A DNA stretch of 36,201 bases, taken from Gallionella sp. (GTDB lineage: Bacteria > Pseudomonadota > Gammaproteobacteria > Burkholderiales > Gallionellaceae). The notes beneath the pieces were generated by a model. The model saw only the letters and a list, made by a program, of their open reading frames with translations. It did not search any database and was not told the origin of the DNA. This document shows, piece after piece, positions 2,510 to 28,248 of this stretch. The stretch covers positions 1 through 36,201 of the forward strand of contig JAUYJO010000026.1 of the NCBI GenBank assembly GCA_030700315.1, in the 5' to 3' direction. Position numbers and translations under genes: made by a program. The stretch's first letter is position 1. Every line of letters starts with the position of its first letter.

Positions 2510-3760
2510 GTGCCGCAAACTAACGGTCATGGCAAGCACGCCACCCCTGATTATGAAACTTGCCATGACCGTTTCCCCCTATCCAACTTTCCCCCGCAAG
2601 CGGGAGAAAGTGCAAACGAATCGCTACGCGAGTTTCACGTTAACCCTGCCATTCTTGTGCTTGCCGAAGGCACGGTATTTCGGGGTGTTGCCATCGGGGC
2701 TTCCGGCAGTAGCGCCGGTGAGGTGGTGTTCAACACCTCGATGACCGGTTATCAGGAAATCCTCACCGACCCATCCTACTGCAAGCAGATCGTCACGCTG
2801 ACCTACCCGCATATCGGCAACGTCGGCGTGAATAGCGAAGACGTGGAGTCGCGCCAGGTGTTTGCCAGCGGCCTGGTGATCCGCGATCTGTCGCTGACGG
2901 TAAGCAACTTCCGCAGCACCCAATCGCTGCCCGACTACCTCAAGGCCAACAACGTGGTGGCGATCGCCGGGATCGACACGCGCAAGCTGACGCGCATCCT
3001 GCGCGAGAAGGGCGCGCAGAACGGTTGCATCGCCACCGGCACGGACGAAGCGGCGGCGCTCGCGGCGGCGCGCGATTTCGCCGGACTGGCCGGAATGGAT
3101 TTGGCTAAAGAAGTTTCATGCACCGATCCCTACTCGTGGACGCAGCGTGAATGGGAGTTGGGCGTGGGCTATCCCGAGTTGGCACATTCCGAATTTCATG
3201 TGGTGGCTTACGACTTCGGCGTAAAGCGCAACATCCTGCGCAAGCTGGCCGAGCGCGGTTGCCGCATCACCGTGGTGCCGGCGCAAACCCTGGCTGCGGA
3301 GGTGCTGGCGCTGGAGCCGGACGGCGTATTCCTGTCCAACGGCCCCGGTGATCCCGAACCGTGCGACTACGCGATAGCCGCGACGCGCGAGTTCATCGAT
3401 GTGGGCGTACCGCTGTTTGGCATCTGTCTCGGCCATCAATTGATGGGCTTGGCGGTGGGTGCGAAGACAGTAAAGATGAAGTTCGGCCATCGCGGCGCGA
3501 ACCATCCGGTGCAGGACATGCAAAGCAAACGGGTAATGATCACCAGCCAAAACCACGGCTTTGCGGTGGATGCGGCGACGCTGCCGGCAAATGCGCGCGT
3601 CACGCATGTCTCGCTGTTCGACGGCACCTTGCAGGGTTTCGAGCTGACTGACAAGCCCGCGTTCTGCTTCCAGGGGCATCCGGAAGCCAGTCCGGGGCCG
3701 CACGATGTGGATTATTTGTTCGACCGCTTCGTGGCGATAATGGAGGCAAATCGTGCCTGA
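2510..3760 (+). CDS. carA: Carbamoyl-phosphate synthase small subunit
   Basis: CarA hydrolyses glutamine and passes ammonia to CarB for carbamoyl phosphate, the precursor of pyrimidines and arginine. The N-terminal CarA domain ([19 protein letters not shown]) is followed by a class I glutamine amidotransferase domain with the nucleophile motif GICLGHQ (Cys306 in this numbering) and GHPEASPGP carrying the His390/Glu392 pair. The family normally starts just before the strand read here as [10 protein letters not shown], but no ATG, GTG or TTG exists at that place. The nearest upstream codon with a good ribosome site is GTG 2510, preceded by GGGAG at seven bases. Translation from it runs through a palindromic repeat and adds about 45 residues. 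ATG 2456 is the alternative but lies in a hairpin. Function is certain; the start is not. Confidence 0.93.
2522..2644. repeat. Dispersed two-hairpin repeat (copy 1), at the carA 5' end
   Basis: Arms 2522-2536 and 2559-2573 form a perfect 15-bp stem with a 22-base loop. A second stem, 2586-2597 with 2600-2611, has one mismatch, and the unit ends in GAGTTTCACGTTAAC. A closely related copy with compensated base changes lies at 7553-7676 upstream of greA, and a partial inverted copy lies at 18221-18355 inside the RND pump gene. Here the unit is read in frame as the N-terminal extension of CarA. Confidence 0.9.
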
Positions 3761-4235
3761 TAAAAAGCCCGTTTTGCTGCCCGGACAAATTATCGAAGGC
3801 ATTGAGGGACAAATTTATTCCTTGCGCGGTCAGCGGGTGATGTTATCGCACGATCTGGCCGCGCTCTATCAGGTTGAGACTAAAGTATTGATGCAGGCAG
3901 TGCGACGCAACATCGAGCGATTCCCCGAAGATTTTTCTTTCGAACTTACCAATCAAGAGGTTCGGATACTAAGGTCACAAATTGTGACCTTAGAAGGCGG
4001 GTTGAGGACGCATGCACCCCATGCTTTCACCGAGCAAGGTGTTGCCATGCTTTGTAGGGCGGATGAGCGTAGCGTTATCCGCCAAATGGAATTCTCATAC
4101 GGCGGAAGGCGCTTCGCTTTTCCGCCCTACAAAAAATTTGTCGCACAATTCCAAGTGGTATTTGAAGCGATCCGCGAATTGATGACCCCTCCTCTGCCGC
4201 CCTCCAAAAAACGCATCGGTTTTATTCAAGATTAA
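3753..4235 (+). CDS. ORF6N-domain protein with in-frame repeat insert
   Basis: The first hundred residues are a typical ORF6N domain: [19 protein letters not shown], then [18 protein letters not shown], then [12 protein letters not shown]6N proteins are DNA-binding proteins of phage and mobile-element origin. Directly after FTEQGVAML, residues 101-126 are encoded by a REP-like palindrome (4054-4130). The sequence then resumes with [16 protein letters not shown], the usual family C-terminus. The helical middle part normally found between these two blocks appears to be missing. The GTG start overlaps the carA stop and follows GGAGG at six bases, so the gene is translationally coupled to carA. 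Its position between carA and carB is unusual. Whether the product is still functional is unknown. Confidence 0.8.
4054..4130. repeat. REP-like palindrome inside the ORF6N gene
   Basis: The unit begins GTAGGGCGGA and ends TCCGCCCTAC, perfect 10-base inverted ends. It contains the core GATGAGCGTAGCGTTATCC. The same core and ends occur at 15454-15547. It is open in the host frame. Confidence 0.9.
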
Positions 4236-4241
4236 TGTGAT

Positions 4242-7200
4242 ATGCCAAAACGTAGTGACATTAAAAGTATCCTGATCATCGGCGCCGGCCCCATCGTTAT
4301 CGGGCAGGCATGCGAGTTCGACTATTCCGGCGCGCAGGCCTGCAAGGCGCTGCGCGAAGAAGGCTATCGCGTCATCCTGGTGAACTCGAATCCGGCCACC
4401 ATCATGACCGACCCGGACATGGCGGATGCGACTTACATCGAGCCGATCACATGGAAGATGGTGGAGAAAATCATCGCCAAGGAACGACCCGACGCGATCC
4501 TGCCGACCATGGGCGGACAGACTGCGCTGAACTGCGCGCTTGATCTGGCAAAACACGGCGTGCTGACAAAATACAACGTGGAGATGATCGGCGCATCGCG
4601 CGAGGCCATCGACATGGCAGAAGATCGCGAAAAATTCAAGCAGGCGATGACGCGTATCGGGCTGGCTTCGGCGCGCTCCGCGATCGCACACAGCATGGAA
4701 GAGGCGTTTCAGGTGCAGCAGGTAATGGGCTTTCCGACCGTTATCCGCCCATCTTTCACCATGGGCGGCAGCGGCGGCGGTATCGCCTATAACCGCGAAG
4801 AGTTTGTCGAGATATGCGAGCGCGGGCTGGAAGCCTCGCCGACACGCGAGCTGTTGATCGAGGAATCGCTGCTCGGCTGGAAAGAATACGAGATGGAAGT
4901 GGTGCGCGACCGCAACGACAACTGCATCATCATCTGCTCCATCGAAAACCTCGACCCGATGGGCGTGCATACCGGCGACTCGATCACCGTCGCGCCGGCA
5001 CAAACACTGACCGACAAGGAATACCAGATCATGCGCGATGCCTCGCTGGCGGTGCTGCGCGAAATCGGCGTAGACACCGGCGGCTCCAACGTGCAGTTTT
5101 CCATCAACCCGGACGACGGGCGCATGGTGGTGATCGAGATGAACCCGCGCGTGTCGCGTTCCTCTGCGCTGGCCTCCAAGGCGACCGGCTTCCCGATTGC
5201 CAAGGTAGCGGCCAAGCTGGCGGTAGGCTACACGCTCGACGAGCTGAAGAACGACATCACCGGCGGCGCGACCCCCGCTTCGTTCGAACCCTCCATCGAC
5301 TATGTGGTCACCAAAATCCCGCGCTTTGCCTTCGAGAAATTCCCGCAGGCCAACGACCGTCTGACCACACAGATGAAATCGGTGGGCGAAGTGATGGCGA
5401 TTGGTCGCACCTTCCAGGAGTCGTTCCAGAAAGCCTTGCGCGGCCTGGAGGTCGGCGTACACGGACTGGATAGCAAGTACAGTGACCGCGAAGCAATCGT
5501 GTCCGAACTCGGCAACCCCGGACCGGAACGTATCTGGGCGGTAGGCGACGCGTTCCGTCTCGGCATGAGCGTGGAAGAAGTCTTCAACGTCAGCAAGATC
5601 GACCCGTGGTTTTTGGTGCAGATTGCCGACCTGATCCGGCAGGAACAGGCGCTGGCGGGGCACACACTGGAAAGCCTGGGCGCGGATCATCTGCGCACCT
5701 TGAAGCGCAGCGGTTTCGCCGACGCGCGCCTGGCGGCACTGTTAGGTATCGATGATGAATCGGTGCGCGCCTACCGCCATGCACTCGGCGTGCGCCCGGT
5801 CTTCAAACGCGTGGATACCTGCGCCGCCGAATTCGCCACCAACACCGCCTACATGTATTCGACTTACGAGGAAGAGTGCGAAGCGCAACCTACCGGCAAC
5901 AAAAAGATCATGGTGCTGGGCGGCGGACCGAACCGCATCGGACAGGGCATCGAATTTGACTACTGCTGCGTGCATGCCGCGCTGGCAATGCGCGAGGACG
6001 GCTACGAGACCATCATGGTCAACTGCAACCCGGAAACCGTCTCGACAGACTACGACACTTCCGACCGGCTATATTTCGAACCGCTGACGCTGGAAGATGT
6101 GCTGGAAATCGTGGCGGTGGAAAAACCCATCGGCGTGATCGTGCAATACGGCGGCCAGACACCGTTGAAGCTGGCGCACGGCCTGGCAAGGAATGGCGTG
6201 CCCATCATCGGCACCACGCCGGACATGATCGACTGCGCGGAAGACCGCGCGCGTTTCCAGACCATGCTGCGCAAGCTGAATTTGAAACAGCCGCCCAATC
6301 GCACCGCAAGCAATGTGGCCGATGCGGTCGCGGGCGCAACCGAGATTGGCTATCCGCTGGTGATGCGCCCTTCCAACGTGCTGGGCGGTCGCGGCATGGA
6401 GATCATCCATGCGCAGCCTGACCTGGAACGCTATATGCGCGAGGCTGAAGAATTAGCCAAAATTTACCCGGAGCGCATGCCCATTTTGCTGGATCGTTTC
6501 TTGAACGATGCCATCGAGGTGGACGTGGATGCGATATCAGATGGTCGGCAAGTCATCATCGGCGGCATCATGGAACACATCGAGCAGGCTGGCGTGCATT
6601 CCGGCGACTCGGCCTGCTCGTTGCCGCCGTTCAGCCTGTCGCAGGAAATGCAGGACGAATTGCGCCGCCAGACCTTGGCGATGGCCAGGGAACTCAACGT
6701 GGTCGGTTTGATGAACGTGCAGTTCGCGATTCAAAATGACAAGATGGGGCACGGCACCGTGTATGTGCTGGAAGTAAACCCACGCGCATCGCGCACCGTG
6801 CCGTTCGTTTCCAAGGCGACCGGCGTGCCGCTGGCGAAAATCGCGGCGCGCTGCATGGCCGGGCAGACCCTGGCGCAGCAGGGCGTAACCAAGGAGGTCA
6901 TCCCGCCGTATTACTCGGTCAAGGAAGCGGTATTCCCGTTCATCAAGTTCCCCGGCGTGGACACCATCCTCGGCCCCGAGATGAAATCCACCGGCGAAGT
7001 GATGGGAGTCGGCGAAACTTTCGCCGAGGCGTTTGTGAAATCACAATTGGCAGCCAGCGTAAAACTGCCCAAAGATGGTAGAGTATTTATCAGCGTGCGC
7101 GAAGAGGATAAACCCGGTGCAATGGAGGTGGCGCGCGCTTTAAGGGAACTCGGTTTCACCATTCTGGCAACGCGCGGTACGGCAGCGGTAATCAGTGCGG

Positions 7201-7484
7201 CAGGCGTTGCGGTGACGGTGGTGAACAAGGTGGCGGAAGGTCGCCCGCATATCGTGGACATGATCAAGAACGGCGAAGTCAGCCTGATCGTCAACACCGT
7301 GGACAGCAAACCTTCGGCGATGCGCGATTCGTATTCCATCCGCCATGCCGCATTGCAGGGACGGGTTACTTACTACACCACGCTGGCCGGCGCGCGCGCC
7401 GCCTGCATCGGGATGCAACACTTGACCGAGTTGCAGATATATGACCTGCAAGCGCTGCACAAACGTTTAGCCTCTAGCCGGTAG
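4242..7484 (+). CDS. carB: Carbamoyl-phosphate synthase large subunit
   Basis: CarB makes carbamoyl phosphate from bicarbonate, two ATP and the ammonia delivered by CarA. At 1080 residues it has the full family length. Two homologous ATP-grasp halves are visible: the first starts with [20 protein letters not shown] and the second with [20 protein letters not shown] near residue 555. Both halves have the metal-binding EMNPR/EVNPR signatures ([20 protein letters not shown] and [20 protein letters not shown]). The C-terminal 140 residues form the MGS-like allosteric domain that binds UMP or ornithine in enteric bacteria. No clear ribosome site precedes the ATG, perhaps because the ORF6N gene separates it from carA. 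The stop codon is the TAG within the repeat that starts at 7481. Confidence 0.97.
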
Positions 7485-7552
7485 GGTGGGCTTTGCCCAC
7501 CATGCCTGTCCTGAGCTTGTCGAAGCGGTCGGGCGTAGCCCGACCTACGACT
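7481..7552. repeat. Repeat cluster carrying the carB stop codon
   Basis: Three units follow one another: the hairpin GTAGGGTGGGC-TTT-GCCCACC from 7481, whose TAG serves as the carB stop; the dispersed unit 7504-7537, which recurs with one mismatch at 13584-13617; and the hairpin GGTCGGGC-GTA-GCCCGACC around 7527-7547. Such stems could also help end transcription after carB. Confidence 0.8.
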
Positions 7553-7676
7553 AACGGGCATGGCAAGTGTGCCACACCTGATTATGGAACTTGCCATGCC
7601 CGTTTCCCTCACCTCAATCCTCTCCCGCAAGCGGGCGAGGAGGCGAACGAATCGCTGCGCGAGTTTCACGTTAACG
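7553..7676. repeat. Dispersed two-hairpin repeat (copy 2), upstream of greA
   Basis: Same structure as the unit at 2522-2644. Arms 7553-7567 and 7590-7604 are perfect with a 22-base loop. The second stem, around 7618-7628 with 7631-7641, has one mismatch. Relative to copy 1, one pair of the first stem and three pairs of the second have changed on both sides. It lies wholly in the carB-greA gap. Confidence 0.9.
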
Positions 7677-7707
7677 ACTAATAACTAACGACTAAGGAAG
7701 TATTGGC

Positions 7708-8184
7708 ATGAGCAAAACCCCATTAACTCTCGTCGGCGCGGAACTGCTGCGCCAGGAACTGCACCGCCTCAAGACGGTGGAACGCCCATCGGTAATCGGC
7801 GCAATCTCCGAAGCGCGCGCGCAGGGCGACCTGTCTGAAAATGCCGAATACGACGCGGCCAAGGAACGCCAATCGTTTGTCGAAGGGCGCATCGTCGAAC
7901 TGGAAGGCAAGCTGGGCAGCGCGCAGATTATCGACCCAAAAACTATCAACGCCGGCGGGCGTTGTGTGTTCGGCTCAACCGTGGTGCTGGAAGATGTCAA
8001 CAACGGCGATGTCGTCACCTATCAAATCGTCGGCGACGACGAGGCAAATATCAGAGAGCGTAAAATTTCCATCAGCTCGCCGATTGCGCGCGCGCTGATC
8101 GGCAAGATGAGCGGAGATATAGCCGAGGTGATAGCACCAAGCGGAATGCGGGAATACGAAGTGGTGGATGTTCAATACATTTGA
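7708..8184 (+). CDS. greA: Transcription elongation factor GreA
   Basis: GreA enters the secondary channel of stalled RNA polymerase and stimulates cleavage of backtracked RNA. The 158-residue length is typical. The N-terminal coiled coil carries the tip motif [16 protein letters not shown] with the essential acidic pair, and the C-terminal FKBP-like domain includes [12 protein letters not shown]. The start has AAGGAAG at a suitable distance. It follows carB with 223 bases of repeats between them, so it may be co-transcribed or have its own promoter; I saw no clear promoter boxes in the gap. Confidence 0.97.
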
Positions 8185-10100: not shown

Positions 10101-10180
10101 GATAAAACTCCAATGAGAATAGTTTAAACCTGCGCGGCCGATGCACGGTTAGCGCTTGTGAAAATAAGTGGTGTATGTGA

Positions 10181-10261: not shown

Positions 10262-10267
10262 GGGCGA

Positions 10268-10295
10268 ATATTACCAGTTTTACCGGCTCGCGCAA
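10268..10295 (-). promoter_or_regulatory. Candidate leuA promoter
   Basis: On the minus strand TTGCGC (10290-10295) and TAATAT (10268-10273) are 16 bases apart. The expected transcription start, seven bases after the -10 box, falls at 10261, the first base of the leader-peptide ATG. Confidence 0.5.
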
Positions 10296-11452: not shown

Positions 11453-11577
11453 CAGAAGACAGAGGACTGAAGACAGAGGACAGATTTTTGTGTGCCGCTT
11501 GCGGCACATTGGTTAAACGCGCGGCGCAGCCGCGACAGCGCTTCTGTCTTCTGTCTTCCGTCCTCTGTCATCTGGCT
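11453..11577. repeat. Composite repeat with GACAGAGGA-type ends (copy 1)
   Basis: Purine-rich tandem heptamer-like ends (AGAAGACAGAGGAC) at the left and their complement (CTTCTGTCTTCTGTC) at the right flank a centre with the hairpin TGTGCCGC-TT-GCGGCACA and the stem GCGGCGCAGCCGC. The same organisation recurs at 28071-28248 across the gpmI-envC junction. The left end abuts the gpsA start codons and the right end abuts the SH3 gene stop. Confidence 0.8.
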
Positions 11578-13200: not shown

Positions 13201-15013
13201 GCCGGTACTCCCGTTCTTTTTGGAGGGCGAATTCTAGCAGAGCTGAAAAGCGTTCGGGGTCTTTCTCTGCCAATTCGCTCATCTGCCGCCGCGCATCGGC
13301 AAAATTGCCCGGATAGGACCAGATGGCCTGTTCCAGAATAGTTCTGGCCTGCTCCTGCTGCCCGGCCAGCGCCAGCAGCAGTGCCTGGCGGTATGCCACC
13401 ACGCCGGTCGGCATGAAACGCATCACGCGGGTGTTCAATTCCAGCTTATCCTTGAGGTATTCTTCCTTGATCTCGATCAGCGAACTCATGAGCAGCTCGG
13501 CGTAAGGCGCCAGCAGCGACCCGCCATGCACCGCCACCAAGCCGGCCCGCGTGCGCTCGAAGGCGCTGCCGTCGGCCGCCGAAGCCTGTCCTGAGCTTGT
13601 CGAAGCGGCCGGGCGTATCGCCAGCGTCCGCTCCAGTTGCTGATAGCCGCTGCGCAGTTGCGCCAGCGTCATCAAGCCCAGCAACAGAATCGCCGCGACG
13701 GATAGACGCCCGGCATGGCGCAATTCCAAGCGGTAGCGCGTTTCATCCAATGCGCCCAGCAACACCGCCGCGACCGCGACAAAATAGGCATACCACAGCG
13801 GATATTCGAGCAGGCTGTGGATAGCCAGCACACCCAGTGCGGCATGCCCCCACCAGTGCGCGGCATCGAGCACGACGCGCCTCAGGCCGTAAAGCCAGAT
13901 GCCCAGTGACCCGAACAGCACCAGCAAGCCCGCGCTGCCCGCTTCGGCCGCCAGATGAAAAACCAGGTTGTGCGCATTGTTGTACAGGCCGGTAATGCTG
14001 CCAGACTGCAATACCGGCAGCAACTGAAAATGCTGCCAGGCGAATTGCCCAAAGCCGACGCCCAGCCACGGCGACTGCACGAACATCAGCCCCGCTTCGC
14101 GCCACAGATACAGGCGTATCGCCCCGCTTGCCCCGTCGCCAAACAGACGCCGCATGGTATCGATACTGCCGTCCGCGCCAGCCATGAACGGCAGTTGCAC
14201 GACCAGATGCATCACGGCAAACCCGCCAATCAGCAGCAGGCTGTAGCACAACAGCGGGCGCTGCGCGGCATCGCGCCGCGTCCACCACCAGGCCAGACCA
14301 GCCATCAGCAGCAAATACAGCCAGGAGCTGCGCGACCCGCTCAAGGTCATCACGAACAGCAGCGGCACTGTCAGCGCCGCCACATAGCCCGGTTTCAGCT
14401 TACGCAACCGCAACAGCAAACCGAGCGAAATCAGCCCCAGCGTGATGTAATTGGCAAAGTGGTTGGGCTGGGCGAGGTTGCCATAGACGCTGTGCGAGAC
14501 CTTCATCACGATCACCGGATTCAGCGGTGTGGGCCAGCGGTAATGCTGCAATACCCCGATCATGGCGCTGAGTTCCGCGCCCATCAGCAAAAATACTGCC
14601 AGCACCAGCGCCATTCTTTCCATGCCGAAGCAGTCGCGCAATCTGGCACCGAGCACCATCAACAATGCCCCGAACAGCAAATATAATGCGTACAGCAAGG
14701 CCTGATCGAAATAGACCACCTTGCCCAGCCCCCATTGCAGCAGCAGCACGGAGATCAATCCGGCCGGCAACTGCACGATGCGCGGCATATCCGGCTGCTG
14801 CCAGAAGTCGCGCCCGGCCAGCAAGGTCAGCGCCAGCACGCCGAGCAGCGCGCTCCACCATTCCTGATAAAACGTGGTCAGCGGGTATTGATGACGGTAA
14901 TGCAGAAAAGGCAAAACCCACATCAGCCCGACGATAACCAGGCTGAGATGGGTTAAGCCCAAGCCAAACGAATATGAACCTGAAACCGGGCGCAGGTTGG
15001 CCGCTTGACTCAT
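13181..15013 (-). CDS. pglL: PglL-type O-oligosaccharyltransferase / O-antigen ligase family
   Basis: This 610-residue polytopic membrane protein has about eleven hydrophobic segments. Near residue 180 it carries GNLAQPNHFANYITLG, the signature of PglL-like protein glycosylation ligases, and further on the periplasmic-loop motif YNNAHNLVFHLAAEAG of the Wzy_C/ligase superfamily. PglL enzymes transfer lipid-linked glycans to pilin and other proteins in the periplasm; WaaL or polymerase activity cannot be excluded. The C-terminal 150 residues are soluble and helical (TPR-like). Residues about 466-477 (PAASTSSGQASA) come from a dispersed repeat at 13584-13617. The ATG overlaps the preceding gene's stop (ATGA), and the 3' end overlaps the rhodanese gene. 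No pilin gene lies nearby. Confidence 0.8.
   Translation of the reverse strand: MSQAANLRPVSGSYSFGLGLTHLSLVIVGLMWVLPFLHYRHQYPLTTFYQEWWSALLGVLALTLLAGRDFWQQPDMPRIVQLPAGLISVLLLQWGLGKVVYFDQALLYALYLLFGALLMVLGARLRDCFGMERMALVLAVFLLMGAELSAMIGVLQHYRWPTPLNPVIVMKVSHSVYGNLAQPNHFANYITLGLISLGLLLRLRKLKPGYVAALTVPLLFVMTLSGSRSSWLYLLLMAGLAWWWTRRDAAQRPLLCYSLLLIGGFAVMHLVVQLPFMAGADGSIDTMRRLFGDGASGAIRLYLWREAGLMFVQSPWLGVGFGQFAWQHFQLLPVLQSGSITGLYNNAHNLVFHLAAEAGSAGLLVLFGSLGIWLYGLRRVVLDAAHWWGHAALGVLAIHSLLEYPLWYAYFVAVAAVLLGALDETRYRLELRHAGRLSVAAILLLGLMTLAQLRSGYQQLERTLAIRPAASTSSGQASAADGSAFERTRAGLVAVHGGSLLAPYAELLMSSLIEIKEEYLKDKLELNTRVMRFMPTGVVAYRQALLLALAGQQEQARTILEQAIWSYPGNFADARRQMSELAEKDPERFSALLEFALQKEREYRRAVRHQ
13584..13617. 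repeat. Dispersed 34-bp repeat inside pglL
   Basis: The unit starts GCCTGTCCTGAGCTTGTCGA and matches 7504-7537 with a single mismatch over 34 bases. In pglL it is read on the opposite strand in frame, in the soluble linker after the last membrane segment. Confidence 0.9.
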
Positions 15014-15333: not shown

Positions 15334-15453
15334 ATGTGTCATTGCTCCGCCCATTTCAGATACGAACAAAAGGGGTAGTGTTCTCATGGCACTCGGTTAA
15401 GGGATTGCGGCTCCATAACGATGGAGTGGCTTGCTGCTGCGGCACGATAGCAT

Positions 15454-16577: not shown

Positions 16578-19500
16578 TTACGGAAACTTCTTGTACAGCG
16601 TGGCGTAATACAGCACCGGAATCACCACCAGCGTCAGCAAGGTGGAAACCAGGATGCCAAAAATCAAGGCCAATGCGAGGCCGTTGAAAATCGGATCATC
16701 GAGGATGAACAGCGCGCCGAGCATCGCCGCCAACCCGGTCAGAATGATCGGTTTGGCGCGCGCGCCGGCGGCGGCGGTCACCGCCTGCTGCAACGCCACG
16801 CCATCGCGCAGTTGCAGATTGACGAAATCCACCAGCAGGATCGAATTGCGCACGATGATGCCGGCCAGCGCGATCATGCCGATCATCGAGGTCGCGGTGA
16901 ATTGCGCGCCGAACAACGCATGTCCAGGCATCACGCCGATGATGGTCAGCGGGATCGGCGCCATGATGACCAGCGGCACCAGGTAGGATTTGAACTGCGC
17001 CACCACCAGCAGATAAATCAGCAGCAGACCCACGCCGTAAGCGATGCCCATGTCGCGGAAGGTCTCGAAAGTCACCTGCCACTCGCCGTCCCATTTCAGC
17101 GCGTAACCGGCATAGGGATCGCTGGGCTGTTTAAAGAAATAACTCTCCAGCGCGCCGCCCTGCTCCAGCGCCATGCCGCCGGTCTTGCCATTAATGTCGA
17201 ACATGCCGTACAACGGGCTATCCAGCTCGCCCGCCATATCGCCAAACACATACACCACCGGCAGCAGGTTCTTGTGATAGATCGGATAATCGCGTTGCGC
17301 GGGGACGACCTGCACCAGCTCGGATAACGGGACGAGAATACCGTCACGCGCACGTACCTTGAGCTTGAGCACTTCGCCGATCTGGCTGCGCCGCTCCGCC
17401 GGCAGGCCGATGCGCAGCGGCGGCGCATACTTCGCGTTTTCATCATGCAGCGAAGCAACATCCTGCCCGGACAACGCCATGGCAATTGCATCCACAATGT
17501 CGTGCGGCGCAACCCCGAGCAGGGCCGCCTTGCTTTGCAACACATGCAGCAACAGCTTGGGCGCGGGTTCGGTGACGCTGTCGTCGATGCCGACGATGTC
17601 CGCCGTCGCGGCGAACTGCTCGCGCACCTTGCCGGCCACGGCACGTGTGCCGTCGTAATCCGGCCCGTAAATCTCGGCCACAATCGGCGACATCACCGGC
17701 GGTCCGGGCGGCACTTCGACAATCTTCACCTTCGCGCCCCGGTTTTGCGCAATCTTCCTGATCGGCTCCAGCGCGGCGCTGGCGATCTCATGGCTGCTGC
17801 GGTTGCGCTGATGCTTGGCGCGCAAATTCACCTGGATGTCACCCTGCTCGGCGGCGCTGCGCAAATAGTACTGGCGCACCAGGCCGTTGAAATTGATCGG
17901 AGACGCCGCACCGGCATAGGCCTGGTAATCGGTCACTTCCGGCACGGTCGCCAGATAATCGCCGATCTCGTGCAGCACCGCGTTGGTCTGTTCCAGCGCC
18001 GTGCCGCTGGGCATATCCACCACGACCTGGAACTCCGATTTATTGTCGAACGGCAGCATCTTCAGCACCACCAGCTTCACCACACCCAGCGACACCGCCA
18101 GCAGCAGTGCGGCCAGGATGGCCAGCCACAGTTTGCGTCGCGCGCGCTTGCCGCCTTCCCGATTCAGGAACGGGCTCAGGCGCTCGCGGAAGAAGCGATT
18201 GATCGCGGATTCGCTCTCGTCGTTAACAAGAGCATCGCGTAGCGATACGTTCGTACCCTCTCCCGCTTGCGGGGGATAACCAGCGACTTGGCTGGCGTTG
18301 TTTGCCAGCCTAGTCGAATGGCTAGTAGTTCCATCAGGGTTGGGGAGGGGGAGAGTCTCGTGCTGCGCCCCGGCGAAGCGGTACACCAGCCACGGCGTGA
18401 TGATGAACGCCACCGCCAGCGAGATCAGCATGCCCATGCTGGCATTGATCGGGATCGGGCTCATGTATGGCCCCATCAGGCCGCTGACGAACGCCATCGG
18501 CAACAGCGCGGCAATCACCGTGAAAGTCGCGAGTATGGTCGGGCTGCCCACTTCATCCACCGCTTCCGGAATGATTTCAGCCAGCGATTGATGCGGTGCC
18601 AGCGCACGCCGTCTGTGGATGTTCTCGACCACGACAATCGCGTCGTCCACCAATATCCCGATGGAAAAAATCAGCGCGAACAGCGACACGCGATTCAGCG
18701 TGAAGCCATACGCCCACGAGGCAAACAAGGTCGCCGCCAGGGTCAGCAGTACCGCGATACCGACCACCAGCGCCTCGCGCCGCCCCATCGTCAACCACAC
18801 CAGCACGACCACGGCGAGGGTGGCGAACAGCAGCTTCTGGATCAGCTTCATCGCCTTGTCGTTAGCGGTCTCGCCATAGTTGCGCGTGACGCTGACCTGC
18901 ACGTCGTGCGGAATCACGCTGCCCTTGAGCTCTTCCACACGCGCCAGCAACTTATCGGCGATTTCCACCGCATTGGCACCGGGTTTTTTGGTGACCGCCA
19001 GCGTGACGGCAGGAAATTCTCCCTTGGCCGCGATCTGCTTGTCTGCGGCGGCCATCCCGGTTCCCAGCCATACATAACTGTTCGGCTGGTCCGCGCCATC
19101 CTGCACCTCGGCGACATCGCGCAGAAATATCGGCTTGGCATTAGCCGAATTACCGTTGGCCACGCCGACCACCAGTTGCTTCACTTCACCGGCGTCGCTC
19201 AGAAAACTGCCGGTCTGCACCAACACCTCGCGGTTGTCCTGCACCAGATTTCCGGCATTCTGCGACACATTGGCGGATTGCAGCGCGGCGCGCACATCCT
19301 GCATGGTGAGCTGGTAGGCGTTCAGGCTTTCCGGGCTGAGCAGCACGCGCACCATGCGCTGCGTCGCGCCCAGCGTGCTCACTTCGCGCGTGCCCGGCAC
19401 GCGCTTCAGCTCGGCCTCGATGGCATGCGCCACCTGGGTCAGTTCGATACCGCCACCGGCAATCTGCTCGCGCCACAGCGTCAGCGCAACCACCGGCACA

Positions 19501-21444: not shown

Positions 21445-21473
21445 GTTGCTATCCTCCGTAAGTTGATGAATCG

Positions 21474-22604
21474 TTACTTCTGCTTTGCGCCCGACATTCC
21501 GGCCTTGACCGGTTCCAGCGCCACTTTTTCGCCCGGGCTCAACCCCGCCAGCACTTCTACCAGCCCCTCGGCCAGCGTTTCTCCAAGACGCACCTGGCGC
21601 AATTTCATGGCACCATTCTCGCCCACCACATACACCGCCACCACTTCACTGCGGTGCAGCACGGCACTCGCCGGTATCACCAGTTTGTTCGCCTTGCCCA
21701 CCACAAAATGCACGCGTACAAACATACCCGGATAAATTCCCGCTTCGTTTTTGGGCAAATCCACGCGCACTTGCGTGCTGTGGGTGCGCGCGTCGGCAAC
21801 CGGCAGCACCGTCACCGAGGCGGCATCAATCCAGCGCTTCAGCGAGGGAATCTCCACCTTGGCTTCCACCCCTCTCCTCAATCCTCCCACAAAGGGGGAG
21901 GGGGCGATCGTCCCTTCCCCCTCTGGGGGAAGGTTAGGATGAGGGTTCATGTGCGCACCAATCTCCGCCAGCTTGTCTTGCGGCACGCTCACCAGCACAC
22001 GCATCTCGGCAGAATCGAAACCGGTCATCAAGGGTTTGCCGGGCATCACCATTTCGCCAACCTCCACCAGGCGCGCCGCCACCAACCCGCTGTAAGGCGC
22101 AATCACCGCCGTGTAGCCGTGCGCAAGACTGGCCTGCCCCGCGCCCGCCTCGCTGGCAGCAGCTTGCGCCAAGGCCACTTTGTAGTCGGCCTGCGCCTTG
22201 TCGAGCGCCGCCTGGCTGATGAACTTTTGCGCGAACAATTGCCGGGCACGCTCGTAAGCCGCCTTGGCGTTGTTCAGATTGGCCTGCGCCTGCAATACCT
22301 GCGCCTGGCTGCCCGCAAGAGCCTGTGCGGCTTCGCGCTCGTCGATACGCAGAATCACCTGCCCCTTGCTGACACGGTCGCCGACATCGAACAGAATTTC
22401 CTTGACGCGCCCGCCGATCTGCGCGGACACAGTAGACTGGCGCGTCGCCTCCACCAGGCCGTCGGCGCTGTAAGTTTGCGCCACCTCGCGGTACTCCACC
22501 GGGGTCACGGCAAGCGACCCGGCAGCCAGCGCGGTACCGGCTCCCAACACCTGTGCGGTCACAGCCCCCCACAGCAGACTAATAATCCAGAATTTTTTCA
22601 GCAT
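21474..22604 (-). CDS. RND efflux membrane fusion protein with repeat insert
   Basis: This is the periplasmic adaptor that links an RND pump to an outer-membrane channel. An N-terminal signal peptide (ISLLWGAVTAQVLGAGTALA) precedes the lipoyl half-motif VSAQIGGRVKEILFDVGDRV, a long helical hairpin rich in alanine and glutamine (about residues 90-155), the second lipoyl half, and beta-barrel and proximal domains (THSTQVRVDLPKNEAGIYPG). Residues about 219-247 (NPHPNLPPEGEG and onward) are encoded by a C-rich repeat and interrupt the beta-barrel domain between DKLAEIGAH and AKVEIPSLKRWID. The insert may disturb folding. It is the first gene of the operon with sqr, the RND pump and DUF2892. Confidence 0.9.
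   Translation of the reverse strand: MLKKFWIISLLWGAVTAQVLGAGTALAAGSLAVTPVEYREVAQTYSADGLVEATRQSTVSAQIGGRVKEILFDVGDRVSKGQVILRIDEREAAQALAGSQAQVLQAQANLNNAKAAYERARQLFAQKFISQAALDKAQADYKVALAQAAASEAGAGQASLAHGYTAVIAPYSGLVAARLVEVGEMVMPGKPLMTGFDSAEMRVLVSVPQDKLAEIGAHMNPHPNLPPEGEGTIAPSPFVGGLRRGVEAKVEIPSLKRWIDAASVTVLPVADARTHSTQVRVDLPKNEAGIYPGMFVRVHFVVGKANKLVIPASAVLHRSEVVAVYVVGENGAMKLRQVRLGETLAEGLVEVLAGLSPGEKVALEPVKAGMSGAKQK
21864..21952. repeat. C-rich repeat inserted in frame in the fusion-protein gene
   Basis: The segment contains CCCCCTCTGGGGGAAGGTTA followed by GGATGAGGG; the reverse complement (CATCCTAACCTTCCCCC) recurs at 31779-31800. It encodes about 29 proline- and glycine-rich residues in the host frame. 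Confidence 0.85.
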
Positions 22605-22633
22605 CGCGACACCCCAGTCACTTCGTTATATTA

Positions 22634-22649
22634 GAATATACTGATATTC
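22634..22649 (-). promoter_or_regulatory. Candidate operator of the fusion-protein/sqr/RND operon
   Basis: GAATAT (22634-22639) and ATATTC (22644-22649) form a perfect dyad with a four-base spacer, 30-45 bases before the first gene, overlapping the likely promoter. An adjacent ATATT-AG-AATAT dyad overlaps it. AT-rich dyads of this size are typical ArsR-family sites, and a candidate persulfide-type ArsR regulator is encoded at 26127. A partly similar TAGAATATTAGCAG (minus strand) lies between that regulator and gpmI. Confidence 0.45.
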
Positions 22650-22654
22650 AAATT

Positions 22655-22693
22655 AAAAAGCAATCATAAAAAGCAATCATAAAAAGCAATCAA
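22655..22693. repeat. Three tandem copies of a 13-base unit
   Basis: AAAAAGCAATCAT is repeated at 22655, 22668 and 22681 (last copy ends AA). It lies just upstream of the dyad, at the position of upstream promoter elements, and is very AT-rich. Confidence 0.9.
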
Positions 22694-22724
22694 TTCGAGT
22701 GGCTTCTATATTATGTGCAATGCG

Positions 22725-22776
22725 GGTTATTCGCTACTCCGAAGTTGCAACTTCCGAGATCGTCGTTCGAATAACC
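22725..22776. promoter_or_regulatory. Nested palindromes upstream of the chemoreceptor gene
   Basis: GAAGTTGCAACTTC (22741-22754) is a perfect 14-base palindrome enclosed by GGTTATTCG (22725-22733) and CGAATAACC (22768-22776). It does not resemble the other repeat families here and could be a regulatory site in the gap between the divergent fusion-protein and chemoreceptor genes. Confidence 0.4.
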
Positions 22777-22803
22777 ATTTACCTACTTATTCAATTACGA
22801 TTT

Positions 22804-22920
22804 AACCCATATAATCCATTGGGGCGTAGGCCGGGCTTCAGCCCGACATGTCGGGTTAAAACCCGACCTACAACCCATATGATTTTCAATACCCCAATAG
22901 CTAATGAACTATCTGGGTTT
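22804..22920. repeat. MITE-like repeat with AACCCA-type inverted ends (copy 1)
   Basis: The unit starts AACCCATATAATCCATT and ends AATGAACTATCTGGGTT, imperfect 17-base inverted ends. Its centre, GGGCTTCAGCCCGACATGTC plus a GGGTTAAAACCC stem, is the reverse complement of the centre at 25839-25885. Confidence 0.85.
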
Positions 22921-22980
22921 AAAATGCTGCTTAACCGTGAAAAAATCCCGGCTGCGCGATAAACCAGAAATCAATCTTGT

Positions 22981-24711
22981 ATGAAAGAAAAAATGACTAC
23001 TAAAAGTTCAACCGCAAAAAGCGCCAGCATCAAAACCCGTTTGTTATTGATTATGGCCGCCGCCTTGACGGGCATGATACTGATTGCGATTTTTGCCTTG
23101 CAGTCCGAGAAGGCTACCTTGCTCGAAGACCGCAAGGTCAAGACCCGCCATCTGGTTGAGGTCGCTCATGGCCTGCTTGGCTATTATTATGACCTGCAGC
23201 AAAAGGGCGCCATCACCGAAGATGCGGCAAAAGAGGCGGCCATCAAGGCGATCAAGGCATTGCGCTACGAAAAAACGGAATATTTCTGGATCAACGACTT
23301 CACCGCACCGGTCCCAAAAATGGTGATGCACCCGACCGTGCCCGCGCTGGACGGTAAAGTGCTCGATGCCGAAAAATTCAACTGCGCAACAAGCTTGCAG
23401 GGCGGGATTGACGGCATTATCGAGAAGACCGATGGCAAGAAAAACCTGTTCGTCGCTTTCAATGAGGTAGCCAATAAATCAGGCCAGGGTTACGTCACCT
23501 ATAACTGGCCAAAACCCAAGGCGGGCGGCGGCACCACCGTGGAACTTTATACCAAGCTGTCCTTCGTCAAAAAATTTGAGGGCTGGAACTGGCTGATCGG
23601 CTCCGGCATTTATCTCGACGATGTTGACACGATATTCTGGAACCACGCCACCTGGCTGATCGGCATCATTCTGGCGATAACCGCGCTGGTCGGCGGAGGC
23701 ATGATGCTGGTTATACGCCGCATAACGCGGTCGCTGAACGAGCTGGGGAATGCCATGAACCAGATTCAGACCAGCAACGATCTGTCGCGGCGTGTAACCG
23801 TCAACTCACATGACGAAGTCGGATTGATCGGGCTATCCTTCAACCAGATGATCCAGAGTTTCCAGGAAATCATCCAGCAGGTAGTTTCCAACTCGAACGG
23901 CGTCATGCAGGCTGCCGACAAACTTTCCGACTCCTCGCATCGCGTCGCCGTCAGGTCGCAGAGCCAGAGCGACGCAACCGCCGAGATGGCGGCGGCGGTG
24001 GAAGAGGTGACCGTCAGCATCAGCCATGTCGCCGACAGTTCGCAGGAAACCCATCATATCGCCCACAAGTCCGGGGAGCTATCCTCGCTGGGCGGCGAAG
24101 TGGTGCAAGGAGCCGCAACCGAGATGAACAAGATCGCCGAATCCGTGAATCAATCTTCGCAGTTCATCGGAAAGTTGGGCGAGCATTCCAACCAGATTTC
24201 CGCCATCGTCAGCGTCATCAAGGACATCGCCGACCAGACCAACCTGCTGGCGCTCAACGCCGCCATCGAGGCGGCGCGCGCCGGCGAACAAGGGCGCGGC
24301 TTTGCCGTGGTGGCGGACGAAGTGAGAAAACTTGCAGAACGCACCGCCCGCTCCACCGAGGAAATCACCACGATGATCGGCAGCATCCAGAACGGCACGC
24401 AACACGCCGTGAAAAGCATGCAGGAAGGTTGCGCCCGCGTTACCGAAGGGGTCGCGATGGCGAATCGCGCCGGCGAATCGATGAGCCAGATCAGCGACGG
24501 CGCAAACCGCGTGATCACTGCGGTCAGCGATATTTCTACCGCTTTGCGCGAACAGAGCGCCGCCAGCACCCAGGTGTCGCAAAAAGTCGAAATAATTGCG
24601 CGAATGACCGAGGAAAACAGCGTGGCGGCCAATGAAATTGCCGGGGAAGCGCAACAACTGAAAGGCCTGGCCAGCGCCCTGGGCAATGCGGTCAGCCGCT
24701 TCAAGGCTTAA
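22981..24711 (+). CDS. Methyl-accepting chemotaxis protein with Cache sensor
   Basis: This 576-residue chemoreceptor has a first membrane segment (about 19-42), a periplasmic single-Cache-like domain (about 45-205, with [20 protein letters not shown] and the [15 protein letters not shown] end), a second membrane segment (about 220-241), a HAMP domain (about 242-295) and the cytoplasmic signalling hairpin. The hairpin tip [20 protein letters not shown] is perfectly conserved and would bind CheA/CheW. sCache_2 domains of this kind often bind small carboxylates; the ligand cannot be read from the sequence. Two close start codons exist (22981 and 22993) without a strong ribosome site. The gene is divergent from the sulfide operon. 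No che genes are nearby. Confidence 0.92.
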
Positions 24712-24744
24712 CTCCATTTCTCCTCAACAATAGGGAAATAATCC

Positions 24745-24796
24745 GTAGGTCGGGCTCCGCCCGACATTTTTATCCGGCGGGTAGAACCCGCCCTAC
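24745..24796. repeat. Paired hairpin repeat between convergent genes
   Basis: GTAGGTCGGGCTCCGCCCGAC is followed by a GGCGGGTAGAACCCGCC stem and CTAC. It lies between the convergent chemoreceptor and Hpt genes and could end transcription from both sides. It is related to the hairpins at 8301 and 28127. Confidence 0.75.
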
Positions 24797-24852
24797 GAAA
24801 TTGCTCTACTGATCTGGAATTGGAATAAGAACCTGCCAGATTCGCCAGCCTA

Positions 24853-25647
24853 TCAGGCGTCATGTGTCGCGGAAATGGAAAGGGCATTTTTTGTAATGTC
24901 GGCCAAATTCTGCGCCAATTGAGCATCCTTGACGATGACATAATCGGCATCGGTGGCCCTGCTCTTTTTATTGGCGATACCCCGGTTTGCGGTAACCAGG
25001 ATAGCCTTGATATTGCGGTTTTTTGAAGCGGAAAGCTTGAGCGCGCCGATCAGAGCAATTCCGTTCAGTACCGGAATTTCATTGGTGGTGATGAGCAGGT
25101 CGAAGGGTTCGGTAAGAGCGCGCATCAGCGCGATATAACCATCGCCTATGACTACCGGGCGTATCGGCAATTCCGCCAGTGCTTGCAGGTAAATTTGCGT
25201 CAGCAGCTTCGTATTGTCGACAATCATCACCGTGAACTGTTTGGGGGCGAATTGTTTGCGCAGCCCGTTCAGCCGCTCCTCGATCTGCGGGAAGCTGGTG
25301 TTCCCCGCATGAACCTGCCCCAGGGTCATGCGCAGCAGGTCGACATACTCCAGGCTGATGGCGACGAGCGCCGGGGTGTATTTAGCGCCGCCTTCAGTCG
25401 TATTCAGCAAGTCTTCCAGTTGATGGCAAAGAGTGGTGATGATATGCAGCCCAAAAGTGCCACCGCTGCCTTTCAGGCTATGGATGATGCGATAAAACTC
25501 ATTGAACGAGTCGCGGCTGACGCCGTATTTCTCCATGGCCATCAGCAACTGTTCGAGGCGATCAAGCTTTTCCGGCATTTCCTCAAGGAAGGAATTATGC
25601 AGTTGTAGCAGCATCTGCTGGAAGGTGTCGGAATTAATGGAACTCAT
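24853..25647 (-). CDS. Hpt-domain protein with a degenerate receiver domain
   Basis: The N-terminal 120 residues are a histidine phosphotransfer domain with FYRIIHSLKGSGGTFG; His56 is the phosphorylated residue. A CheY-like fold follows at about 138-250 (FTVMIVDNTKLLTQIYLQAL). In DLLITTNEIPVLNG the aspartate that receives phosphate is replaced by threonine, and only one residue of the upstream acidic pair is left (IVDNT). A lysine is present in ADYVIVKD. This is a pseudo-receiver that should not accept phosphate in the normal way. The protein probably relays phosphate from a hybrid kinase or binds a partner through the second domain. No ribosome site is visible. The gene is convergent with the chemoreceptor gene. 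Confidence 0.82.
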   Translation of the reverse strand: MSSINSDTFQQMLLQLHNSFLEEMPEKLDRLEQLLMAMEKYGVSRDSFNEFYRIIHSLKGSGGTFGLHIITTLCHQLEDLLNTTEGGAKYTPALVAISLEYVDLLRMTLGQVHAGNTSFPQIEERLNGLRKQFAPKQFTVMIVDNTKLLTQIYLQALAELPIRPVVIGDGYIALMRALTEPFDLLITTNEIPVLNGIALIGALKLSASKNRNIKAILVTANRGIANKKSRATDADYVIVKDAQLAQNLADITKNALSISATHDA

Positions 25648-25667
25648 TGGGCGTTGGCTACGAATTT

Positions 25668-25694
25668 GTAAAGATGGTAAAGATGGTAAAGATG
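25668..25694. repeat. Three tandem copies of GTAAAGATG
   Basis: Exact 9-base tandem repeats lie 21 bases upstream of the Hpt gene start. Copy number could vary by slippage and alter the promoter region. Confidence 0.9.
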
Positions 25695-25758
25695 CGGGTT
25701 ACCTGAAAGCGGCGCTTGACCTCAGAAACGTGCTAATTGTCGCCGATACAACATAATA

Positions 25759-25906
25759 AACCCAGATAATCCATTAGGCCGTGTCCATGAACCCCAGATA
25801 ATCCATTAGCTCTTGAGGCATTGCAAAATCAATGGGTTGTAGGTCGGGTTTTAACCCGACATGTCGGGCTGAAGCCCGACCTACGTCCAAATGGATTATC
25901 TGGGTT
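25759..25906. repeat. MITE-like repeat with perfect 17-bp inverted ends (copy 2)
   Basis: AACCCAGATAATCCATT (25759-25775) and its exact complement (25890-25906) enclose 114 bases containing a further CCCAGATAATCCATTAG at about 25793 and a TCGGGTTTTAACCCGA/TCGGGCTGAAGCCCGA double hairpin. No protein is encoded. It resembles a miniature inverted-repeat element, but a target duplication was not evident. Confidence 0.88.
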
Positions 25907-25930
25907 AACGTGAAACAACACAAAATGGAA

Positions 25931-26013
25931 CCCCAAACCCCCTCCAGCTCCCCCTTGTCAGGGGGAGAGCCCACCTCCTCCCCTGACAAGGGGAGGCCGG
26001 AGGGGGTTTGGGG
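25931..26013. repeat. C-rich palindromic repeat
   Basis: CCCCAAACCCCCTCC (25931-25945) is the exact complement of the right end (25999-26013), with internal CCCCCTTGTCAGGGGG and CCCCTGACAAGGGG stems. Same family as 20032-20122. With the preceding element it fills the region 25648-26126, which holds no gene. Confidence 0.9.
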
Positions 26014-26126
26014 TAAAAGGTGGAGCAATCTTGCGAGACGTTTCATCACCAGGGGGCTGCAACTACAATGACCTTTAGGCCGGTATGACGCAGTTTTTCT
26101 AATAGATTATTTGGGAATATCTCCCC

Positions 26127-26435
26127 TCATACCGAACAAAACACGTCGCGCATCATGCCGACCAGCTTCAGCGTGCGCAAATCGTCGATGCGGTAATACA
26201 CCCGGTTGGCGTCCTTGCGTGTCGCCAAAACGCCTTTGGCGCGCAAAATTGCCAGGTGCTGCGAAATATTGCTCTGCGAGGTGCCTACCTGCTCCACGAT
26301 ATCCTGCACACTGATTTCGCGGTCGCCGAGCACGCACAAAATCTTCAGGCGCAGCGGATGCGCGATGGCCTTGATGGCCTGTGCGGCCTGTTGGATATCC
26401 TCGTCCCTGTCGATCAAATTATTTCCCATATCCAT
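26127..26435 (-). CDS. ArsR-family repressor, BigR/SqrR/YgaV type
   Basis: This 102-residue winged-helix repressor has the ArsR pattern: AIAHPLRLKILCVLGDREIS, the recognition helix TSQSNISQHLAILRAKG, and the wing ATRKDANRVYYRI. Cys34 (KILCVL) and Cys100 (DVFC) are the only cysteines and are 66 residues apart. The persulfide sensors BigR and SqrR, as I recall them, use cysteines with the same separation and the same local context. In these, formation of a tetrasulfide or disulfide releases DNA. No ArsR metal-site CXC motif is present. I infer regulation of the sulfide operon at 16325-22604, although three kilobases lie between. It is divergent from gpmI. A start two codons later is possible. 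Confidence 0.82.
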   Translation of the reverse strand: MDMGNNLIDRDEDIQQAAQAIKAIAHPLRLKILCVLGDREISVQDIVEQVGTSQSNISQHLAILRAKGVLATRKDANRVYYRIDDLRTLKLVGMMRDVFCSV

Positions 26436-26543
26436 CCCCGATTATCCCGCCAGCCCACATCACACGAGCCCACATAACCAATAGAGGCAAATTCGGCTAA
26501 AATGAAATCTCACAAAATCACCATCTGCTAATATTCTACCCCA

Positions 26544-28088
26544 ATGAACCCCACCCCTGTCTTGCTGCTTATTCTGGACGGCTTCGGTTACCGCGAAGAT
26601 GCCGACTTCAACGCTGTTCTGGCGGCACGCAAACCCAATTGGGATGCGCTGTGGAGCGACTATCCGCACACCCTGATCGATGCCTCCGAAAGGCACGTCG
26701 GCCTGCCGTCCGGGCAAATGGGCAACTCCGAAGTCGGCCATCTCAACATCGGCGCGGGACGCGTGGTGTATCAGGACTTGAGCCGCGTCGATGTCGCCAT
26801 CGAAGACGGCAGCTTCTACACCAACCCGGCGTTAAGCCAGGCCGTTGCGTTAGCCAAACAAAACAACAGCACGCTGCATATCATGGGGTTGCTCTCTCCG
26901 GGCGGGGTGCATAGCCACGAAAACCACATCTTCGCCATGCTGGAAATGGCGGCGCGCGCCGGCCTGAAAAAGGTCTATATGCACGCCTTTCTGGATGGGC
27001 GCGACACACCGCCCAGAAGCGCCGCACCATCGCTGCAACGCTTGCAGGAAAAATGCCTCGCCTTGGGATGCGGGCAAATCGCCAGCATCACCGGCCGTTT
27101 TTATGCGATGGATCGGGACAACCGCTGGGAGCGTGTGCAACCCGCTTATGAACTGCTCACCCAGGGGCGTGCCGAATATACCGCAGCCGATGCGCTGAGC
27201 GGGCTGGAACAGGCCTATGCGCGCGGCGAGTCGGACGAATTCGTCAAGCCGACCGCGATTGTTTCAGGCAGCGCGGATAACGCCATGCAGGACGGTGATG
27301 CGGTGGTGTTCATGAATTTTCGCGCCGACCGCGCCCGCGAGATCACGCGCGCCCTGACGGACAAAATATTTGGCGGCTTCGAGCGCGTTTATCTGCCCAA
27401 ACTCGCCGGTTTCGTTTCGCTGAGCAGCTATGGCGAAGACTTTCATCTGCCTTGCGCCTACCCGCCGCAAACCATCCACAACGGTTTCGGCGAATACCTC
27501 TCGAATCTGGGGCTCAGGCAACTGCGCATCGCCGAGACCGAAAAATACGCGCATGTCACCTATTTTCTCAGCGGCGGCAGGGAGCAGCCCTATCCCGGCG
27601 AAGACCGCATTCTCGTGCCCTCGCCCAAAGTCGCGACTTACGACCTGAAGCCGGAAATGAGCGCATTTGAAGTGACCGACAAGCTCGAAGCCGCGATCCT
27701 GAGCCGCCAGTATCACGCCATCATCTGCAATTACGCCAACGGCGACATGGTGGGGCATACCGGCAACATGGAAGCCGCCACGCAAGCCATCGAGGTGCTG
27801 GACGCTTGCGTCGGTCGCGTGGTCAAGGCGATGCGCTCTATCGGCGGCGAGGTCATCATCACCGCCGATCACGGCAATGCCGAGCAAATGATCGACCACG
27901 CGACGCACCAGGCGCACACCGCTCACACCCTGAACCCGGTGCCCTTCCTGTATATCGGACGCCAGGCCAAACTGATCGAAGGCGGCGCACTGCGCGATCT
28001 GGCGCCCAGCCTGCTGGCCATGATGGGGCTGCCGCAACCGGCGGAAATGACCGGGCACAGCCTGATACAGATGACAGAGGACAGATGA
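26544..28088 (+). CDS. gpmI: 2,3-bisphosphoglycerate-independent phosphoglycerate mutase
   Basis: GpmI interconverts 3- and 2-phosphoglycerate in glycolysis and gluconeogenesis using two manganese ions. The alkaline-phosphatase-like domain has [12 protein letters not shown], the catalytic serine in [16 protein letters not shown] (Ser62), and the metal ligands in [17 protein letters not shown] and [11 protein letters not shown]. The insert domain has [14 protein letters not shown] and [14 protein letters not shown]. The 514 residues match the family. The last six or so residues (QMTEDR) and the stop are supplied by the repeat that begins at 28071. The TGA overlaps the envC start (ATGA). Confidence 0.97.
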
Positions 28089-28248
28089 CGGAAAACAGAG
28101 GTTTTGTGCGGCTGCGCCTCGCCTTTGTAGGTCGGGCTTCGCCCGACACAAAACAAAACCCGCGCAGCGGGCACTTAAAAAGATTGCGCGGCGCAGCCGC
28201 GACAACACTTCTGTCATCTGTCATCTGTCTTCTGTCCTCTGGTGTCTG
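28071..28248. repeat. Composite GACAGAGGA-type repeat across the gpmI-envC junction (copy 2)
   Basis: The left end ATGACAGAGGACAGATGAC and the right end CTTCTGTCATCTGTC followed by CTGTCTTCTGTCCTCTG match the ends of 11453-11577. The GCGCGGCGCAGCCGCGACA stem is shared exactly, and a GGTCGGGCTTCGCCCGAC hairpin is nested within. It encodes the end of GpmI in one frame and the whole N-terminus of EnvC in another. Confidence 0.85.

Follow-up and report, generated by a model that had tools for sequence, protein, structure and literature searches.

Do the short repeats that run in frame through genes of this stretch of DNA simply survive there, or do some of them supply working parts of proteins? 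The window (the whole 36,201-nucleotide stretch analysed here, our contig C72) belongs to a Gallionella metagenome-assembled genome (MAG) of 3.52 Mb in 243 contigs, with 95.5% completeness and 5.4% contamination. An earlier note on this DNA had proposed that short palindromic repeats of several families colonise coding sequences without breaking the frame, and that this could be a general route for adding peptides to proteins. Drawing on the window, the rest of the genome and the 76 genomes of the genus that were searched for all genus-wide counts below, we arrive at a two-part reading to which we give a probability of about 0.78: repeat families are tolerated within genes, and one end of a heptamer-flanked element, which we call E4, has been reused as the hydrophobic core of signal peptides. 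In its stronger form, which we hold to be likely with slightly less assurance, this mobile-looking repeat would be a portable, frame-independent signal peptide that has taken the place of export signals time and again across the genus, in EnvC, in flagellar ring and export proteins, in lipoproteins and in other secreted proteins. Several families of short dispersed repeats would move through these genomes, their copies presumably arising by transposition, and those landing in genes would persist only at permissive spots (termini, linkers and domain edges) where the frame stays open.

E4 is built from two inverted heptamer arrays, [GACAGAN]n on the left and [TCTGTCN]n on the right, around a core with two hairpins. 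The core is 56-61 bp long in 8 of the 13 pairs and ranges from 28 to 194 bp overall. Tract lengths vary between loci, from 3 to 14 units. These inverted arrays occur as dispersed copies with defined ends, as in miniature inverted-repeat transposable elements (MITEs), and a triple-heptamer pattern was found in 22 of the 76 genomes, with up to 122 overlapping matches in one. One copy in the window (28066..28249, plus strand) forms the junction between gpmI and envC; another (11458..11575, no strand assigned) has inverted heptamer arrays around a hairpin core and lies upstream of a gene that we take, from its protein sequence, to be gpsA, whose ATG codons stand just past the tract. The earlier note had touched on the gpmI-envC junction and had not named E4 there as a separate type of element. 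Elements also nest: a GTAG-type hairpin sits within the core of the junction copy (28127-28150), and E1b, a variant of the E1 repeat described below, lies in or beside E4 arrays at the loci L323 and L182.

The right end of E4 has an unusual coding property. By computation, (TCTGTCN)n contains zero stops for each N and encodes one identical peptide in three frames, because 7 = 1 mod 3. That peptide is SV(F/L/I/V)C(L/P/H/R)LS, for example SVFCLLS, and the unit TCTGTCT ranks above 97% of stop-free heptamers in hydrophobicity. The opposite strand encodes a hydrophilic peptide (TEDRRQK), and units of the form TGACAGA introduce a stop. With one strand hydrophobic and the other hydrophilic, an intergenic E4 can end the upstream protein in a hydrophilic tail and start the downstream one with a hydrophobic head. 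At the window's junction copy, the left end encodes the last GpmI residues, MTEDR, and the right end encodes the predicted signal-peptide core of EnvC, so that the GpmI C-terminus and the EnvC N-terminus are indeed both made of repeat, as the earlier note had said. Read in any phase, this end could substitute for a signal-peptide core; where E4 arrived at the 5' end of a gene for an exported protein, the ancestral start and core would have been lost and the old cleavage-site residues retained. Retained residues of this kind are seen in EnvC and are likely in FlgI.

The fate of envC was followed through the genus. A match was found in 67 of the 76 genomes and all 67 N-termini were read; in 12 of them (G000, G004, G005, G010, G013, G016, G061, G063, G066, G068, G069 and G089) at least two exact TCTGTC units stand directly ahead of mature EnvC. 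The hydrophobic core before the mature protein, as expected of a Sec signal, equals native ones in these proteins, with a median hydrophobicity of 2.68 for tract-made cores (n = 12) against 2.75 for the rest (n = 55). The ancestral arrangement is a GTGA start, open and in frame, whose GTG lies on the gpmI stop, 14-40 codons before mature EnvC; it is present in 39 of the other 55 genomes and in 0 of the 12 tract-bearing ones. In the window, envC (28184..29359, plus strand) would instead begin at TTG 28184, the closest in-frame start ahead of the tract; this start and the cleavage site are predictions. By eye, the tracts look decayed in three more genomes (G051, G064 and G072), and in G018, G020, G042 and G047 a GTAG palindrome gives M(S/P)(V/A)GYCAL in place of a tract. 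A GTAG palindrome also precedes the tract in G013, and in G016 an E1b module provides an in-frame ATG, MKLLAIRLGGQTTPAKSLV, ahead of it. A quick maximum-likelihood tree was built from mature EnvC; 23 of its 64 inner branches have support below 80, and two long branches are joined. On it the tract label needs 9 changes, or at least 5 when branches with support under 95 are discounted. The change count is blind to gain versus loss, and a return to the GTG-overlap state seems unlikely.

EnvC is one of many hosts. In total, 142 unique E4 tracts were collected, 45 of which run in frame into an open reading frame (ORF) with a coding signal; 98 ORF rows were listed, and 40, picked by coding score and by eye, were sent to Pfam. 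The domains found after a tract are FlgI (this genome and G016), FlgH (G016), FliP (this genome), FliO (this genome, G058 and G005), DUF4390 (G013 and G052), DUF3108 (this genome and G020), ApbE (G020, with the tract followed by ...LLSCG), N_methyl prepilins and PilX. The ...LLIGC of the G016 FlgH is presumably a lipobox. Further tract-bearing proteins, in three genomes, had no Pfam match, and we take them to be MshK-like. Tract-made N-termini thus recur in nine exported families. For FlgI, comparison with the solved structure 7bgl aligns its LAHAERIRD with SAAHADRIKD, its sequence from LVATLAHAERIRD onward standing against FCSSAAHADRIKD in the tract-bearing protein. A start codon within 10 codons past the tract, counted by hand, is available in 5 of 27 exported cases versus 13 of 21 others (p 0.003), the set being the 45 minus one duplicate and a CarA-linker row, plus five added by eye. 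Gph-like proteins (HAD hydrolases) also carry an in-frame E4, at L344, L308 and L365, and the tract in G016 has 14 units.

If the peptide is used, selection should be visible at the variable base of the heptamer, which decides between leucine (T), proline (C) and histidine (A) in CNT codons and is synonymous in TCN codons, always serine. We assembled 27 tract-made N-termini, 12 from EnvC and 15 from other proteins (22 exported rows and 5 further EnvC loci). This set differs from the 27 of the start-codon comparison, in which prepilins were in and the five EnvC loci out; the five prepilin-type rows were excluded here because their leader need not be hydrophobic, and alone they give 0/2 versus 0/5. 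T occupies 31 of 41 CNT positions and 14 of 33 TCN positions (p 0.0045). In 125 other tracts T is found at 150 of 430 positions, from which CNT differs (p 8e-7) and TCN does not (p 0.45). The preference holds against pooled TCN and NTC positions (p 0.027), under shuffling of bases within tracts (p 0.009, for 22 of the 27) and, against background, with one member per family (12/16, p 0.002). No leucine bias appears in 14 genes taken as having their own post-tract start (6/17 versus 5/15) or in 7 cytosolic genes lacking one (4/8 versus 6/13). The leucine preference is therefore specific to the codon position at which the base alters the peptide.

E1, the main repeat family here, behaves differently in the genome. 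It extends from YYAACGG to CACGTTAA over approximately 118-122 bp, with composite variants up to approximately 170 bp, and its dispersed copies with defined ends are likewise MITE-like. The 27-nt 3' end occurs at 76 places in the genome (≤3 mismatches) versus 0 for the reversed pattern, more than chance would give, and blastn finds at least 46 matches to the carA copy in the genome, with 40 of its 156 candidates scored. A 23-nt E1 pattern (≤2 mismatches) was found in 49 of the 76 genomes, with its maximum, 70, here and all controls at 0. The E1 end is also present in at least 94 stretches from MAGs deposited as Gallionella, Ferrigenium, Sideroxydans, Nitrotoga, Gallionellaceae and Nitrosomonadales; a few vaguely named MAGs, for example Proteobacteria bacterium FK4.bin2 and Gammaproteobacteria bacterium RBG_16_51_14, are among the sources of the stretches listed. 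An Rfam scan of the window gave no match at gathering score. The genome has five Y1_Tnp matches (L459-L463), four of them over the cut-off, as expected where RAYT-type transposases serve palindromic repeats, and GTAGG motifs, scored as motifs alone and apart from any flanking structure, lie near three of the five. No E1 or E4 sequence was found in the loci of these five matches, and other transposases were not searched for.

No preference of E1 for coding sequence emerged. A crude test of codon usage in 240 nt of each flank, blind to N-terminal cases such as carA, covered 82 of 85 places (3 with >4 errors were omitted): 39 had no coding signal, 34 had one on one side and 9 on both, 3 of these 9 being clear read-through. 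Among 17 hand-picked ORFs spanning E1, Pfam placed the element internally in 6, in a YgjP-like peptidase, a glycosyltransferase, RapZ, a U32 peptidase, a chorismate lyase and a histidine kinase (between PAS and HisKA), in linkers or at domain edges; other ORFs have it near the N-terminus, where the true start is uncertain. Nor is the element unusually open: 49 copies of 110-128 bp averaged 1.82 open frames of six versus 1.78 in dinucleotide shuffles, and their 89 open frames were reached by 40 of 100 shuffles. The flank test and the openness of shuffles rule out E1 as a preferentially coding element and lend no support to the idea that these repeats colonise coding sequences by preference. Because few places are coding on both sides and openness shows no excess over shuffles, E1 seems to lie mainly outside genes and to be tolerated at times within them. 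Judged from their positions, both E1 and the GTAG palindromes found in genes would be tolerated passengers.

That in-frame repeats in host genes are real is nonetheless clear from orthologues. The earlier note had proposed aligning the host proteins with those of relatives; once this was done, the segments in CarA, the RND transporter and the membrane-fusion protein (MFP) proved to be absent there. Its picture of several unrelated families, with the frame kept, in a Betaproteobacterium is upheld as well. In carA (2510..3760, plus strand; carbamoyl-phosphate synthase small chain, PF00988/PF00117), whose GTG start at 2510 is conserved in relatives, a 120-bp E1 copy (2525..2644, plus strand) is inserted in frame after codon 5, bounded by two TAAC (2521-2524 and 2641-2644). 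TAAC thus flanks E1 on both sides in carA, and the 5' base differs among copies. The site is empty in relatives: the closest, L032, reads CCGCAAACTAACCCTGCC versus CCGCAAACTAACGG...CACGTTAACCCTGCC in the window, the 40 inserted codons are missing from 20 of 20 relatives compared and likewise from L041, and CarA runs continuously across the site in the 20 as MPQT-NPAIL or its equivalent. In the RND transporter, an E1b segment (18222..18356, minus strand) follows a hydrophobic helix and precedes the next conserved block; its 45 residues compare with a few to about 10 in close relatives, and at this site L134 and L135 carry another segment, about 25 residues long. The E1b block is absent from 23 of 23 aligned loci (20 genomes, 10 at ≥75% identity and the others more distant). 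Its 3' half matches E1, nearly its full length matches other E1b copies, and it is read in the same frame as in CarA (...TNVSLRDALVN). The MFP insertion (21867..21947, minus strand) adds 27 codons that are missing from 13 of 13 aligned loci and belongs to a repeat family separate from E1.

Two further cases that had been listed are not clean private insertions. In the ORF6N-domain gene (3753..4235, plus strand; PF10543), a GTAG-type palindrome (4053..4130, plus strand, with another copy at 15453) and its flanks make 31 residues where G005 and G016 have 46, in place of the roughly 46 native residues and with the frame kept; as far as the aligned genes tell, the event is an in-frame replacement rather than an insertion. 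The segment in pglL (13571..13617, minus strand; CCTGTCCTGAGCTTGTCGAAG type, repeat family D9) spans 4-6 codons and is shared with G009, 1 of 17 aligned loci, which rules it out as a private insertion. The carB stop, a TAG at 7482-7484, does lie as described within the GTAGGG of one or more GTAG-type palindromes (7481..7549, plus strand), read here in the window alone and having other copies.

How far, then, does E4 as a signal-peptide core withstand the alternatives? The simplest would be that repeats insert anywhere and harmless in-frame ones stay, the hydrophobic E4 end being a lucky sequence that is less purged at exported genes and put to no use. The scarcity of E1 places with coding signal on both sides, the internal E1 copies confined to linkers and domain edges, and the E4 tracts that precede cytosolic genes too all fit such passive tolerance. 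Yet tract-bearing envC shows no other signal peptide and its ancestral GTGA start is gone, and tolerance would not explain a leucine preference at CNT with none at TCN; we therefore regard it as a doubtful account of E4. Somewhat less probable again is that the tracts are 5' regulatory or phase-variation devices, in which gain or loss of heptamers toggles flagellar, pilus and cell-separation genes and the peptide is secondary. Each heptamer added or lost moves the frame by one base (7 = 1 mod 3), so the same ends could also switch genes on and off; lengths of 3 to 14 units between loci and several flagellar or pilus hosts agree with this, but the leucine preference is seen in the gene's own frame and tracts also stand at other kinds of gene. 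Coding elements of the Rickettsia palindromic element (RPE) type, selected to bring a conserved peptide into proteins, would account for the shared frame of E1 in CarA and RND; with so few E1 copies coding on both sides and openness no greater than in shuffles, this is improbable. The fragmentation and contamination of the MAG could suggest artefacts of assembly or binning, a prospect we consider negligible: the same families and kinds of junction recur in many other assemblies, and assembly error is rejected as unlikely given E1 in 49 and the E4 tract in 22 of the 76 genomes.

Reuse of E4 as an export signal has points against it, which we gather here. The reversed pattern, used as a control for the heptamer search, yields 0-17 matches per genome (4 here) instead of none; such arrays can match it as well. 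G089 is the weakest of the 12 EnvC cases, with only two, separate units. The class 'exported' was assigned from Pfam names and, for the MshK-like proteins and L315, from the general character of such proteins. A post-tract start is possible in FliO L393, FliP, MshK-like L400, the prepilin L377 and PilW L384, and some genes that are cytosolic by name have no usual start just past the tract; three genomes show this for Gph, two for RuvX, and one each for MurG and an FAD-binding protein. In these genes, barring a rare start, the tract would put an export signal where none belongs; they may use such a start (for Gph, an in-frame CTG of the tract) or may carry a tolerated extension. The codon test weakens when divided (p 0.14 for EnvC alone, 7 loci; p 0.08 for the 15 other exported proteins), gives p 0.026 or 0.14 with one member per family depending on the member, and includes partly non-independent rows such as G061 and G063. 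The comparison of ancestral with derived orthologues covers EnvC.

Several ingredients of this picture have precedents. Among the papers cited below, we take PMC3733652 to be Di Nocera et al. 2013 and the author of PMC2759123 to be Delihas. As background, the cyanobacterial STRR sequences are short heptameric dispersed repeats. Beggiatoaceae reportedly carry dispersed TAACTGA heptamer repeats (PMC4679880). E4 shares heptamer units and dispersal with both and differs in that its arrays are inverted, enclose a hairpin core and are translated in frame. In Rickettsia, repeats within genes have been described (PMC3733652, PMC10969869). What we see resembles the outcome described there, with repeats some 100-150 bp long running in frame through unrelated housekeeping genes and, for CarA, RND and MFP, absent from orthologues, as the earlier note had proposed. 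The large intra-ORF share of RPEs is not seen (9/82 places for E1, 6 internal cases in 17 scanned ORFs), the families here are mutually unrelated, one of them supplies signal peptides, and the likeness described is one of outcome. The setting is less new than had been supposed: GTAG/CGTC repetitive extragenic palindromes (REPs) occur in genes of several free-living species including Thauera, encode 20-30 and up to 82 residues, and are in many N-terminal cases suspected to be extragenic (PMC3733652). Palindromes with a GTAG-tagged short hairpin at 4053-4130, 7481-7549, 22817-22887 and 25830-25900 are of this kind, whereas E1 and E4 are without the tag. In Yersinia, a predicted signal peptide is made of a repeat, the enterobacterial RU-1/RU-2, and others are predicted at YPO2495 and YE2643 (PMC2759123, 2007). 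Those are single predicted cases; here there is a frame-independent tract, nine exported families, recurrence in one gene across species and a codon test. In the literature searched we found no direct precedent for a heptamer-encoded, frame-independent end reused as a signal peptide, and it is this that appears new, repeats in genes and a repeat-made predicted signal peptide being known. The original proposal of a general route for adding peptides overreaches for E1 and the palindromes, whose presence looks tolerated, and it is supported in one form that had not been put forward, E4 supplying signal peptides.

E4 thus offers a testable case of molecular exaptation, in which a selfish-looking repeat happens to be a ready-made protein part in any frame and would have been reused many times. 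It would be a concrete route to new signal peptides, with ancestral and derived states coexisting in related species, and its codon-level signature can be searched for elsewhere.

Other repeats in and near the window extend the inventory. A second E1 copy (7550..7675, plus strand), 82% identical to the first, lies between carB and greA. The ORF6N gene stands between carA and carB here and at the same place in G005 and G016, whereas 30 other relative loci were read and none showed it. The interdomain linker of CarA (near residue 180) carries length inserts of its own in eight relatives, L047 and L063 among them. DNA was inspected for two of the eight, G005 and G016, and there the inserts are inverted arrays of other heptamers (GGATTTG and GGAATCA), so E4 may be one member of a class of heptamer-ended palindromes. 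A further dispersed repeat, family D3, centres on AACCCAGATAATCCATTGGGGCGTA and recurs in the window at 22796, 25751, 25783 and 30799.

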